A stretch of DNA of 41,425 nt from a virus. The notes under the pieces were generated by a model, which saw only the letters and a program-made list of their open reading frames with translations, ran no database searches and was not told the DNA's origin. The translations under genes were made by a program, and so were the position numbers. Below, piece by piece: positions 35,722 to 41,425 of the stretch; positions within the stretch are counted from its first letter, which is position 1, and every line of letters begins with the position of its first letter. Location of the stretch: positions 1 through 41,425 of the IMG/VR virus record IMGVR_UViG_3300045284_000074. One strand, written 5' to 3'.

Positions 35722-35960
35722 GTCGGGATGCCGGATGCCAGCCACGCGAGCGGGATGGCAATGAGGAAGGCGAGCCACCCCCTGGGTTGCATCAGGATGG
35801 CGCTATCCGGCGGCGCTATTGAGGCGGCGACAGTGAACCCAATGAGCGGCGACAGCAGGATGAAAGCGGCGAACCTGGCGCCCCAGCCTCCCTGAAGCCA
35901 CGCCATGAGCCAAGCAAAAAACAGGACGGCGCCGATTAGGCATAGGATGAAGGTCAGCAT
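35691..35960 (-). CDS. Small membrane protein, paralogue A
   Basis: 89 residues from ATG 35960 with hydrophobic segments MLTFILCLIGAVLFFAWLMA, RFAAFILLSPLIGFTVAAS and WLAFLIAIPLAWLASGIPTY, ending LRSSRKAF. The C-terminal WLASGIPTYLRSSR is related to WFASGIPIYVRRRR of the 36596 gene, so the two are probable paralogues. It ends inside the last late gene on the other strand. Membrane role unknown (lysis, exclusion or entry block). Confidence 0.6.
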   Translation of the reverse strand: MLTFILCLIGAVLFFAWLMAWLQGGWGARFAAFILLSPLIGFTVAASIAPPDSAILMQPRGWLAFLIAIPLAWLASGIPTYLRSSRKAF

Positions 35961-36592
35961 GGCATGGCCCTGTCCAGATAGTCGAAGAATGCTTCGGTTA
36001 GCGTCAGGCTCTTCTGGAACCGATAGGTCCATATGGATGTGTGAGGGATGCCGTATTTATCGCAAGCGTCCCGTATAAGCTGCCGCTGGCCGCATACAGT
36101 TACGTAGCGCGTATTTTGCTTATTCCTACCTTGTGTTGACACGTTGGCCCATACGCAATTCCCTGGTTCGTAGCCGAGGTCGTTGTCTATTCGCTCGATG
36201 GATGTGCCTTGCGGTTTCTCGCCCATATCGGCCAGGAATTGCGAGAAGTCATTCCATCGCTCGCAAACCGTAATCCCTCTTTCCCCATAGCGATGCCATT
36301 TGGGGTTGTTTGGGTTGTTGCACCGTTTTCGCATGCTTTTCCACGTTTGATAGGTCGAGGTGCGTTTGCCGTTGGCAGCCCCGCCATGCTTCGTGAGCTG
36401 CTGAATAACCAGTTCCTTGTGCAGGCATCCGCATGACCTTGTTGCGCCGCTTTGAAGATTGCCGCCGGCAACCGTCACGACTGCGCCGCACAAGCATTGG
36501 CATTTCCACATTCGATCTCTGCCACCGCTTGCCTGTTCCAGCACCGTCAGCCTGCGGAACACATGCCCGGTTCTATCTATGAACGCTGGCAT
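35954..36592 (-). CDS. HNH endonuclease, homing type
   Basis: 212 residues. WKCQCLCGAVVTVAGGNLQS, then SCGC, TYQTWKSMRKRCNNPNNPKW, HRYGERGITVCERWNDFSQF, DMGEKPQGTSIERIDNDLGY and NCVWANVSTQGRNKQNT make up the well known free-standing phage HNH pattern. C-terminal helices (RQLIRDACDKYGIPHTSIWT) are the DNA-binding part. It sits between paralogous membrane genes 35691 and 36596, overlaps the first by 7 bases and is A/T-richer than both, so it is a likely insertion into a membrane-gene cassette. Confidence 0.85.
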   Translation of the reverse strand: MPAFIDRTGHVFRRLTVLEQASGGRDRMWKCQCLCGAVVTVAGGNLQSGATRSCGCLHKELVIQQLTKHGGAANGKRTSTYQTWKSMRKRCNNPNNPKWHRYGERGITVCERWNDFSQFLADMGEKPQGTSIERIDNDLGYEPGNCVWANVSTQGRNKQNTRYVTVCGQRQLIRDACDKYGIPHTSIWTYRFQKSLTLTEAFFDYLDRAMPC

Positions 36593-38210: not shown

Positions 38211-39239
38211 TCAGATCGCCCGCTCGGCCTCTGCCGCAAGGATCATCCGCCCCAACAGCTCCGGTATCTGAGGCACCAAGCTGTTCCCGAGCGCCTTGAG
38301 CCTGCTCACCCGATCCGGCACGCCATGCGCTACCCGCGGGATGCCGTCTTCCCAGTCGGCGCCCCAAGGTCCAGCCATCCCGGCGGCAATCCCATCAGCG
38401 CACAGACCCAGGCTGGATTGAGGGCGCCACCAACCGCGTTCGGCAGTTGCTCGCCCTTCGTGCCCCCGCCCCGTTCCGCGTAGCTGGTCGCGTTCGGATG
38501 CCGATAGTCCCGGCTCGCCGGCGTCGGCCATAGCCCGTCCCGCACCGCCGCATACAGCGAGCGCGTCGGGTCCGTCCCGCCCGCATCGTGCCCCTCTGCC
38601 CTCGGGGTAGGCCACATCCCGCTGCGCGCCATCACTGCCAGCGAGGAGCATGTGCTGCGTCCCATCCGCGCCTTCATCGCCATGTGCCCCTCGAAGGATT
38701 TCCCGTCGTCCTTCGCCACCGGGGTGGGCAATGATCCATACCCGCTCCCGGCGGTGCGGGGCTCCCATGTCGGCCGCTGAAATAATGTCCCACTCCGCGT
38801 CATACCCGAGCGCGGAAAGGTCTCCGAGAACACGTCCCATTCCCCGTCCAAGCAGAGCTGCGACGTTCTCCACGAGCACGTATCGGGGTCGTATCTCGCC
38901 AATGAGCCGGGCGAACTCGGACCACAGGCCGGATTGTTGCCCCTCGATGCCAGCGCCCTTTCCGGCAACGCTGATATCGGTGCATGGAAATCCTCCGATG
39001 ATGACATCGGGAACAATTCCATCTGCTGCCAGGCGGGCGCCGGTAAGCGTGCGAACATCGTCATACTGGGGCACCCCTGGCCAATGCTTCGCCAGCACCC
39101 GCCGGCAGAATAGGTCGATCTCGACAAACGCGGCGGTGCGGAACCCGTTGGTGCGCTCCAGCCCGAGGTCAAAGGCACCGATACCGCTGAACAGCGAGAG
39201 GACGGAGAGCATCATGGGGTGTCCAATGTCATACGTCAT
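38211..39239 (-). CDS. DNA cytosine-5 methyltransferase
   Basis: 342 residues from ATG 39239; an internal ATG at residue 9 or 10 is also possible. Motif I FSGIGAFDLG (17-26), motif IV GGFPCTDISVAGKGAGI (82-98, catalytic C86), motif VI ENV (124-126), motif VIII GAPHRRERVWII, and motif X GNSLVPQI near the end. A single target-recognition region lies between VIII and X. The usual PCQ is PCT here. It forms 5-methylcytosine. No partner restriction enzyme was seen, so protection of phage DNA or regulation is likely. The pentanucleotide arrays lie beyond its 5' side. Confidence 0.9.
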   Translation of the reverse strand: MTYDIGHPMMLSVLSLFSGIGAFDLGLERTNGFRTAAFVEIDLFCRRVLAKHWPGVPQYDDVRTLTGARLAADGIVPDVIIGGFPCTDISVAGKGAGIEGQQSGLWSEFARLIGEIRPRYVLVENVAALLGRGMGRVLGDLSALGYDAEWDIISAADMGAPHRRERVWIIAHPGGEGRREILRGAHGDEGADGTQHMLLAGSDGAQRDVAYPEGRGARCGRDGPDALAVCGGAGRAMADAGEPGLSASERDQLRGTGRGHEGRATAERGWWRPQSSLGLCADGIAAGMAGPWGADWEDGIPRVAHGVPDRVSRLKALGNSLVPQIPELLGRMILAAEAERAI

Positions 39240-39618
39240 GAGGAAACGGTCGTTTGGGCGTCGGCCGCGAGATTGTACAGCCGACGAAACCCGGCTCGGA
39301 AAAAGTCAAGGCGGCGGAACTCGCGCACTTAATGTTTTTTCCGGCGGATTTCGCGGCGCATTTAATGCCCCGTGCAATCAACGGGTTAGCCGGGCAGTTC
39401 CGCCGGGTTTTTGTCCAGTGCGGCGATATCGCGGAGATAGCAAGAGGTTTGGCGGAACTTGCTTTGGTGTCATTACCCAGTTCTGTCGGGTTATGTCGGG
39501 TTATGTCTTGCATTGCGCTAGCCGGGCTAGCGTGACTGCGCCGGATCGCCCGGCGGCCGACGCGAACGGGGCGCGTTGCTTCAATCTCGACGGATGGGGC
39601 AGCCGATATCAGTGCCAT
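39229..39618 (-). CDS. Possible protein upstream of the methyltransferase
   Basis: 129 residues, MALISAAPSVEIEATRPVRV, then HNPTELGNDTKASSAKPLAI and IKCAAKSAGKNIKCASSAAL. Its stop overlaps the methyltransferase start by 11 bases, as elsewhere in this genome. But the region also holds tandem and inverted repeats, composition is Ser/Ala-rich, and no family is recognised. It may instead be regulatory DNA. Confidence 0.35.
   Translation of the reverse strand: MALISAAPSVEIEATRPVRVGRRAIRRSHASPASAMQDITRHNPTELGNDTKASSAKPLAISAISPHWTKTRRNCPANPLIARGIKCAAKSAGKNIKCASSAALTFSEPGFVGCTISRPTPKRPFPHDV
39485..39532. repeat. Tandem 10-base repeat and an inverted repeat
   Basis: GTCGGGTTAT is repeated in tandem at 39485-39494 and 39495-39504. 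CGCTAGC-CGG-GCTAGCG (39516-39532) is a perfect inverted repeat with 7-base arms. Both lie between array 1 and the methyltransferase gene and may be regulatory sites for the methyltransferase. Confidence 0.45.
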
Positions 39619-40045
39619 GCCTAACCTGCCATGCCCGGCCGGCCCCCGGCGATCCTTGCCTCACCCCGCCTGCCATGCCTCGTCGGTCCCTGCCAGGCCC
39701 GGCCACCGCGAGCCATGCCTAGCCTGCCCACCCAAGCCGCGTCCGGACCCTCCAGGCCAGACCCATCCGCGCCTGCCATGCCATTGCGAGCCTGGTCCCG
39801 ACACGCCGCGCCTTGCGTTGCCTGCCGTGCCGCGCCCCACCGGGCCGATCCTGGCCTCGCCCTGCCATGCCTGCCCGGCCGGGCCATCCCTGCCGTGTCT
39901 AGACCAGCCGGGACGCTCGAAGCCACGCCGGGCCTGCCGAAACGTGCCCTGCCCGGCCGTGTCGTGCCACTGCGGGCCGTTCCCCGCCTGCCCGGACCGG
40001 CCGAGCCTTTCCGAAACGGGCCTACCCCCGCCACGCCTGCCGTGC
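39608..40045. repeat. Degenerate pentanucleotide array 1 (NNGCC on +, GGCNN on -)
   Basis: About 440 bases built of 5-base units, two variable bases followed by GCC, for example TTGCC, TCACC, CCGCC, ATGCC, CTGCC, AGGCC, CGGCC. Phase holds for many units, with occasional one-base slips. Unit identity is low but the C at one column is almost constant. The array fills the gap from the region upstream of the methyltransferase to the stop of the 40046 gene. Several frames stay open across much of it because of the period and the lack of TAA/TAG/TGA; I read these as artefacts. Confidence 0.85.
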
Positions 40046-40513
40046 CTAAGCCGCCGTCTTCGTCCGCCGCCGGGCGCGCAGCTTCTCGGCCGCCGCCCAG
40101 ACCTCATTCAGGTCGGTCAGCTTCTTGTACCGCTCCTGCACCCGCTCCAGATCATGCAGCGCGTCGTTCATCATGACCTCGCGCAGGTCGGGGCGTTCCA
40201 TCACCTCGGACAGAGGTCGGTAGCCGTTGCTGCCGTCATGCTTGCGGTCGATCGACAGCGAGACAAACCGGCGCCCGCCATCGGCATCCACGATGTAGAC
40301 CGAGATCATCTGCCGCACCTGCCAGATGCGCCATTTCTCGCCGGCGATCTCGTCGTCCCACTCAAGCGCGCCATGCAGGCTGCTTTTGCGGTGCGTCTTC
40401 GCCCACGAAACGGCCTCGGCGGGGTTGATCACCCCGTTGCCGTTGCGTAGCGCCAGCAGCTCCGTCGCAATCGACTCAGTGCGTTCGCTCATGGTTCCGG
40501 TTCCTTCGCTCAT
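40046..40513 (-). CDS. Conserved phage protein flanked by the arrays
   Basis: 155 residues from ATG 40513, with GGAGG 5-6 bases upstream (an in-frame ATG at 40492 is weaker). INPAEAVSWAKTHRKSSLHG, then ALEWDDEIAGEKWRIWQVRQ, MISVYIVDADGGRRFVSLSI and a C-terminal helix (LHDLERVQERYKKLTDL). The A..SPLH..FEWDD..A...RL.QAR.LI block is one I recognise from many phage early regions, function unknown. Non-repetitive and protein-like, unlike both flanks. It lies leftward like the wrapped gene 41049. The long frame continuing upstream through array 2 is a shadow. Confidence 0.8.
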   Translation of the reverse strand: MSEGTGTMSERTESIATELLALRNGNGVINPAEAVSWAKTHRKSSLHGALEWDDEIAGEKWRIWQVRQMISVYIVDADGGRRFVSLSIDRKHDGSNGYRPLSEVMERPDLREVMMNDALHDLERVQERYKKLTDLNEVWAAAEKLRARRRTKTAA

Positions 40514-40520
40514 GTGTTCC

Positions 40521-41048
40521 TCCATGCCTGCCGTGCCGTGCCCATCCCAGACGTTCCAATCCGTGCCGGGCCTGCCCCGTCCCGCCGATCCAAGCCGCGC
40601 CAGGTCGCGCCATGCCCTGCCCTGCCTGCCAAGCCGCGCCGGACCAGACCCTGCGGCGCCGAGCCAATCCCTCCCGTGCCTGCCGGGCCGAGCCTGGCCA
40701 GGCGCTGCGATGCCGAGCCTAGCCATGCCGAACCTGCCTCTCCGAGCCTCATCCCGCCATGACGGTCCCAGCCCATCCTTGCCTGCCCCGCCGTGCCCCG
40801 CCGTGCCCGGACACGCCTTTGCACCCCTTGCCAAGCCTGCCGTGCCTGTGCCCAGCCATGCGTGGCCGCAACGCGCGACGCCGCCCCATCCCACGCCTGC
40901 CCAGCCGGCGCATGCCTCGCCATACCGGGCCAACCCCGGCCTCGCCTGCCGTGCCCATCTGCGCCATGCCGTGCCGGCCCCAGACGTTCCAAGCCTGCCC
41001 GGCCATGCCTTGACCCGCGGTGCGCCGCCATGCCTCGCCCAGCCGCGC
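40521..41048. repeat. Degenerate pentanucleotide array 2 (NNGCC on +, GGCNN on -)
   Basis: About 530 bases with the same 5-base unit and the same orientation as array 1. In phase it reads, for example, GCCTG CCGTG CCTGT GCCCA GCCAT, with position 2 nearly always C and position 3 mostly C. It runs from the ribosome site of the 40046 gene to the stop of the 41049 gene. Open frames in several phases on both strands result from the period and give low-complexity Gly/Ala/Arg/Trp peptides, not real proteins. Confidence 0.85.
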
Positions 41049-41425
41049 CTACTCCACCACCTCGAAATGACCCCAGCCGAGGCCGTTGGAATTTGGTGAA
41101 TCCGGCCGGCCCTCGCCAATGCCAACCTGCACCCCGGCGCGGTGCATCAAATTCATCACATCGGTCGCGCTAAACTGGTCCTCGTCCCAGGTCACGCCCA
41201 CGTTCGCGCTCCATTTTTCCCACATCGGACGCCAGCGTATGTCGGCCACGCCGGTCTCGTTCCTCACCGTGGCCCGGTGAATGCGCGGATCGCCGATGAT
41301 CTTGACCAGCGGCGTGCCGTCGTTCTTGTCGATCCCGTCAGCCGCCACGAAGACCGAGAGCTTCGCCCGCGTCATGACGATCCCGACTAATTTGCAGGCG
41401 CTGATCATGGCGTTGCGGAAAGCCG
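41049..41425 (-). CDS. Conserved phage early protein, C-terminal part (continues at position 339..1)
   Basis: Runs in from the window end with no start and stops at TAG 41049. It carries GIVMTRAKLSVFVAADGIDK, ADIRWRPMWEKWSANVGVTW, then SATDVMNLMHRAGVQVGIGE and GRPDSPNSNGLGWGHFEVVE. The repeated window ends join this in frame to the 113-residue part at 1-339; in the joined protein the last codons before the junction read AIRNAM from the start of the window and AFRNAM from its end. See the entry at 1-339 for the family. Confidence 0.85.
   Translation of the reverse strand, partial: AFRNAMISACKLVGIVMTRAKLSVFVAADGIDKNDGTPLVKIIGDPRIHRATVRNETGVADIRWRPMWEKWSANVGVTWDEDQFSATDVMNLMHRAGVQVGIGEGRPDSPNSNGLGWGHFEVVE
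41406..41425. repeat. Terminal overlap with positions 1-20
   Basis: CATGGCGTTGCGGAAAGCCG matches positions 1-20 except one base (A here at 41420, T at position 15). A gene continues in frame across the join, so this is a circular-assembly overlap. The mismatch is either a sequencing/assembly error at a contig end or a true variant. Confidence 0.85.

Follow-up and report, generated by a model that had tools for sequence, protein, structure and literature searches.

What are two long arrays of degenerate five-base units doing on either side of one small phage gene? The window analysed here, a stretch of 41,425 nucleotides (positions 1 to 41,425 of IMG/VR virus record IMGVR_UViG_3300045284_000074), carries such arrays, and an original prediction made from the letters of the DNA had described them as NNGCC/GGCNN repeats that share one orientation, end sharply and flank one gene. 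Using Viterbi decoding with a slip-tolerant model, we placed array 1 at 39614–40049 and array 2 at 40527–41051, both on the minus strand, where the plus-strand NNGCC reads as (GGC NN)n in the RNA sense. Against 300 dinucleotide shuffles, the lag-5 autocorrelation was 0.51 in array 1 (z = 8.7) and 0.50 in array 2 (z = 9.0), and the signal was absent from the gene between the arrays and from the upstream flank (z = −1.7 and 0.7, respectively). The boundaries and the autocorrelation together confirmed the two arrays, their common orientation and their sharp edges. A peak at period 5 above dinucleotide shuffles, which the original prediction had named as a check, was thus found by autocorrelation (z ~9); in a Fourier scan of 300-base windows the arrays did not stand out in period-5 power, because 4-nt units shift the phase at intervals. 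An Rfam search over the arrays, hammerheads included, returned no family at gathering score, and a tandem-repeat search at the locus found short or degenerate units only, with no long identical repeats.

The phase slips, taken at first for rare one-base events, do exist but follow a regular pattern. Nearly every phase shift recognised by the slip-tolerant model is a single 4-nt GGCA that takes the place of a GGCNN unit, once every 8–10 units. The window contains 18 modules in total, each with 8–10 GGY-NN units between 4-nt marks: array 1 comprises eight GGCA-separated guide modules of 8–10 dinucleotides, one of which closes with GGAT, and array 2 comprises ten GGCA-separated modules of 9–10 dinucleotides. 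The next GGC follows directly after GGCA, so that the modules abut. Taken over all arrays near the Vipr family of the window (see below), the punctuation was the same: A is the last letter in 810 of the 869 4-nt units, the modules have a mean length of 9.3 units (s.d. 3.2), and 83% of them are 7–13 units long, compared with 25% expected from random slips. GGCA marks are also present in arrays of Mycobacterium and cyanobacterial phages. We speculate that GGCA may act as a processing or phasing mark. At 40615–40749, adjoining modules are 54-base tandem near-copies of each other, which suggests, at the level of sequence, that guides arise by duplication of modules followed by changes in the NN letters.

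Repeats of this kind have a counterpart in the VIPR (Viral Interference Programmable Repeat) systems, which were first described in 2026 with tests confined to a single clade, type II (PMC13142463). According to that preprint, which distinguishes seven types, VIPR consists of phage-borne guide RNAs with 9–16 YNNGG repeats, a RAMP protein named Vipr and a small accessory gene, for which vap1–6 are named, and it recognises DNA through NN dinucleotides with one skipped base; binding to dsDNA has been demonstrated experimentally for the VIPR of phage SUSP1. The preprint supersedes the statement in the original prediction that similar stretches in other phages had no known function. As a positive control, our array detector recovered four vrRNAs in SUSP1, one of them upstream and three downstream, in agreement with that account.

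A vipr gene adjoins array 2 in the window, split over the two contig ends, and had been overlooked before. Its C-terminal part, encoding a RAMP protein with the G-loop GIGEGRPDSPNSNGLGWGHFEV, occupies 41049–41425 on the minus strand (stop codon 41049–41051; phrog_4652, E = 2e-13), and its N-terminal part, which begins with MPLDSPTKRTRIP, occupies 1–339 on the same strand. The two parts were joined by tblastn with the full-length Vipr of a relative (L126), of which residues 1–118 aligned at 339–1 and residues 113–236 at 41423–41052; the C-terminal part in the window is 93% identical to this protein. As vipr crosses the contig ends, the contig is a circularly permuted genome, probably near complete. 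The ends also share a 20-base near-repeat with one mismatch.

The Vipr gene of SUSP1 likewise belongs to phrog_4652, and its product is identical to PDB entry 36pp ('SUSP1 Vipr protein'), which the Vipr family profile matched with E = 8.4e-8; hhalign of Vipr gave a probability of 96. The AlphaFold model of the L126 Vipr (mean pLDDT 75) found its best fold matches in CRISPR Csm and type VII RAMPs (E ~1e-4, probability 1.00), with TM-scores to RAMPs of 0.3–0.45, the level of distant relatives. By PHROG, 36pp profile and fold, the window vipr therefore encodes the RAMP homolog of ~20 kDa that is typical of VIPR. Pfam and NCBIfam had no family for Vipr or for the accessory protein, and a PADLOC scan restricted to these two proteins gave no convincing match, with one at E = 0.009.

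Between the arrays lies a candidate vap, the accessory gene of a VIPR locus. Located at 40046–40513 on the minus strand, it encodes 155 aa assigned to phrog_15946, and carries the motif LHxxxEWDDxxA(A/G)xxxRxxQxR; comparison with relatives makes 40492 its likelier start. A model of the protein had no significant match in the PDB, where weak winged-helix matches were all that appeared, and in a viral library it matched two uncharacterised phage proteins. A homolog adjoins vipr in 103 of 108 loci and is also found beside the vipr of Mycobacterium phages, and we speculate that the accessory gene might have a part in the workings of the VIPR locus. Array 1 starts at the stop codon of this gene (40046), and array 2 extends from the vipr stop codon (41049) to 13 bases short of the accessory gene start. 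Since the arrays adjoin the 3′ ends of vipr and of the accessory gene, each belongs to a two-gene unit as a segment downstream of one of the genes: the gene at 40046–40513 does lie between them, but to call them its flanks misses this arrangement.

We then compared the loci of relatives. Arrays were present within 3 kb of vipr at 106 of the 108 loci found through the Vipr protein of the window's family, a count that includes overlapping fetches of single contigs, so that the number of independent loci is smaller. This is the recurrence in relatives that had been proposed as a further check. Near vipr, 139 arrays are on the same strand as the gene and six weak ones on the opposite strand. Depending on the relative, the arrays are placed upstream of vipr, between both genes or downstream, and a gene flanked by arrays is therefore just one of the layouts seen. 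The phage collection contained 27 Mycobacterium records that matched the array DNA and 27 that matched the Vipr protein. A pattern of seven perfect units was found in at least 120 IMG/VR stretches, of which 65 carry a Vipr of the window's type. The other 55 (within L006–L125) have perfect GGCNN runs and no match to the window Vipr profile; other Vipr types may be present in some of them, and others, such as L024, are low-complexity repeats. The system extends to Mycobacterium and Gordonia phages, recognised by their Vipr homologs, to a cyanobacterial phage and to contigs with an assignment to Proteobacteria, Planctomycetota or other groups.

Several single loci deserve mention. In the Cheoctovirus records, a vrRNA array is annotated as protein-coding, namely as gene 48 of Donkeykong (L003, 5978–6364) and gene 39 of ByChance (L004, 6037–6195), and gp49 and gp50, the adjacent 'hypothetical proteins' in Donkeykong, are a Vipr homolog and an accessory protein. 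In a Bacteroidetes contig with 34% GC (L149, 1246–2293), vipr and the accessory gene are present with no detectable GGY array, and this phage may use another repeat consensus. The arrays at L132 6902–8155 (1.25 kb) and L164 5581–6890 (1.3 kb) rank among the longest, and the number of guides per phage varies widely. In the window itself, gp157 and Erf genes (the latter at 2048–2926) lie near vipr in the minus-strand operon neighbourhood, and a C5-cytosine methyltransferase gene (38211–39239) and an HNH endonuclease-like gene (35954–36592) are encoded on the same strand just downstream.

We hold with high confidence that this is the VIPR locus of a P22-like phage, whose arrays would encode ~18 guide RNAs that silence genes of competitors. 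In the mechanism we propose, the minus-strand operon (gp157, Erf, vipr, array 2, accessory gene, array 1) would give rise to one RNA with ~18 guides, each made of 8–10 GGC-NN units bounded by the 4-nt GGCA, which would also reset the register. Vipr, a RAMP relative of the CRISPR proteins Csm3/Cas7, would form a polymer along the GGY triplets and leave the NN pairs exposed, and these would bind DNA in an NN-x-NN-x register, with one target base skipped per unit, usually the codon wobble. The bound complexes would then silence competitor genes such as the large terminase, a primase-helicase-like gene and a virion protein, and the guides of relatives would additionally silence the vipr and vap genes of rivals. 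Transcription, processing, RNA binding, DNA binding and repression at the window locus are all expected by analogy with SUSP1. The original prediction of selection on spacing, in which each fifth base would be read by some protein or RNA, was right in kind: the proposed reader is a RAMP protein with a guide RNA in a 5-nt code.

To look for targets, we rewrote the modules as NN-x-NN-x patterns and compared them with ~25 phage contigs carrying related systems, with all arrays masked. For 243 modules of at least nine dinucleotides and at most one mismatch, the skip of one base gave four sites, while skips of 0, 2 and 3 bases gave 0, 1 and 0; guides with shuffled order gave a mean of 0.23 sites and a maximum of 2 in 40 repeats. 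A larger test (807 modules, 3.9 Mb), from which the low-complexity CG-repeat 'module' of L024 was removed post hoc, gave eight distinct module–target pairs with the one-base skip, compared with 1, 2 and 0 for skips of 0, 2 and 3, and 3 and 2 for the shuffles. It agrees in direction with the smaller test, with a modest excess. One of the eight pairs is not wobble-aligned. In a test of all loci with modules down to eight dinucleotides, no clear excess over shuffles was seen; the target signal emerges once the contigs are complete and the modules have at least nine dinucleotides. Within these bounds, the targets follow the one-base skip of VIPR, with the skip at the wobble position, as judged against the other skips and the shuffles.

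Three of the 18 window guides have a target. The guide TC.AT.TA.TC.AT.AG.CT.CA.TC.CC (40685–40734, minus strand) fits genes of the terminase large subunit, with 20/20 bases in one contig (L294) and 19/20 in two others (G008 and G009). When its exact 20-base gapped pattern was searched through all of IMG/VR, the large-terminase gene of L294 was the one match. The match is located at GEWRLIDYIE, with the AGG codon as predicted by the guide and the skip on the wobble base, and the mismatch in G008 and G009 (CGG for AGN) keeps the arginine of this motif. The terminase of the window itself (~40% identical) does not match this module. The guide GA.CG.TT.CC.AT.GA.AT.CC.TG (40902–40946, minus strand) fits 17/18 bases of a 770-aa virion/lysozyme-like gene in the closest relative, G001. 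The third guide, GG.GA.AA.TC.GG.CC.CG.AT (39631–39670, minus strand), fits 16/16 bases of an AAA_25 primase-helicase-like gene in G003 and is weaker, with eight dinucleotides. Among the relatives, a guide of G002 fits the accessory (vap) genes of G020 and G023, and guides of G019 and G024 fit the vipr genes of G021 and G007, all wobble-aligned.

Chance matches are rare, since four other window modules of ten dinucleotides each (41049, 40680, 39724 and 40626) had no exact match in IMG/VR, and module 40734, allowed up to one mismatch, had none in 297 genomes from the family to which the Bradyrhizobium host of L139 belongs, a search that doubles as a chance control. In the window's own genome, the best match of every module had at least three mismatches. 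At the nine sites inspected, target matches were not seen to run past the GGCA unit, which is suggestive only.

The same pairs bear on whether the guides of a VIPR-related system could act on RNA, like those of type III Csm/Cmr, and not on DNA. The closest solved folds, the type III and VII RAMPs, bind RNA targets, and for several targets, among them the three found for the window, the guide is complementary to the mRNA. However, the guides against the vipr genes of G021 and G007 have mRNA sense, so that template DNA is the sole partner with which they could pair. This favours DNA targeting, as does the dsDNA binding shown for SUSP1 VIPR (PMC13142463). We therefore consider action on RNA improbable.

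It is far harder to credit that the arrays are a functionless degenerate microsatellite shaped by slippage and drift. Some adjoining modules do have stretches in common, as in the 54-base tandem copies at 40615–40749, but the arrays accompany vipr at 106 of 108 loci and keep a fixed strand, GGY is kept while NN varies freely, the slips are A-specific and regularly spaced, and gapped target matches exist. The original prediction had also raised a recombination cassette, with the array edges serving Erf as borders for an exchange of the enclosed gene. Erf is encoded nearby (2048–2926) and there are arrays on both sides of one gene; nevertheless, almost every relative has a member of one conserved family in this place, with no swapping of the gene, and many relatives have an array on one side only. 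The accessory gene is a conserved partner of vipr, often with no array between the two, and not exchanged cargo, which makes the cassette extremely unlikely. Finally, we give practically no credence to a methylation-dense region tied to the C5 methyltransferase (gene at 38211–39239), likewise raised before, or to a protein-coding low-complexity region: we found nothing for methylation and the arrays track vipr across unrelated phages, while the frames that stay open through the arrays, annotated as genes in Mycobacterium phages, are a by-product of GGCNN allowing a single stop (TAG), and the NN letters are hypervariable without codon conservation.

Taken as VIPR, the window locus and its ~100 relatives represent a second lineage beside type II. 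Because the guide boundaries can be read from the sequence as GGCA, natural targets can be decoded on a large scale for testing, and the concrete guide–target pairs obtained here comprise the terminase and the vipr and vap genes of rivals. These predicted natural targets would be new for the tail-less lineage, which Mycobacterium phages make experimentally reachable with a standard laboratory host. VIPR-type arrays pass as ordinary genes in the annotation of public phage records. In a broader proposal, which we judge evenly balanced between right and wrong, an invariant 4-nt GGYA would replace the 3′ tail as guide boundary in this lineage, reset the pentamer register, fix ~9–10 dinucleotides per guide and allow ~18 abutting guides per transcript, for use in phage–phage warfare that includes the vipr and vap genes of rivals. 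Relative to the main text of the VIPR preprint (PMC13142463), the GGCA punctuation is new; its authors may already know it, since staggered, overlapping arrays are mentioned for the supplement.

Compared with the type II VIPR of SUSP1, the window locus has a homologous Vipr (phrog_4652), GGY/NN guide repeats, a small accessory gene, here of phrog_15946, a phage-borne location, targets in rival phages and a 1-nt skip at the wobble; all sequence-level hallmarks of VIPR that we tested (Vipr, GGY-NN guides, accessory gene, skip rule) were thus found. SUSP1 has four separate GGT-rich vrRNAs, each with a structured 3′ tail, whereas the guides of the window abut, are separated by GGCA and lack the invariable structured 3′ tail of type II, which is visible in SUSP1 by the same method. 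The accessory proteins are unrelated (phrog_15946 in the window, phrog_5926 in SUSP1): with an hhalign probability of 0.2 against SUSP1 Vap, the window protein is no homolog of Vap1. The missing tail and the unrelated accessory protein make this a VIPR of another type than the characterised type II. The 'staggered arrays with overlapping vrRNAs' of the preprint (PMC13142463, fig. S18), for which the main text gives no sequence, possibly correspond to the long, register-shifting arrays of the window. With the CRISPR type III and VII RAMPs (Csm3, Cas7), the locus has in common the RAMP backbone fold of the Vipr model, a glycine-rich loop and the proposed RNA-guided recognition. It differs from these systems in that no CRISPR array of identical repeats and unique spacers is present at the window locus, which consists of vipr and one accessory gene, and in that its guides would read two bases in five.
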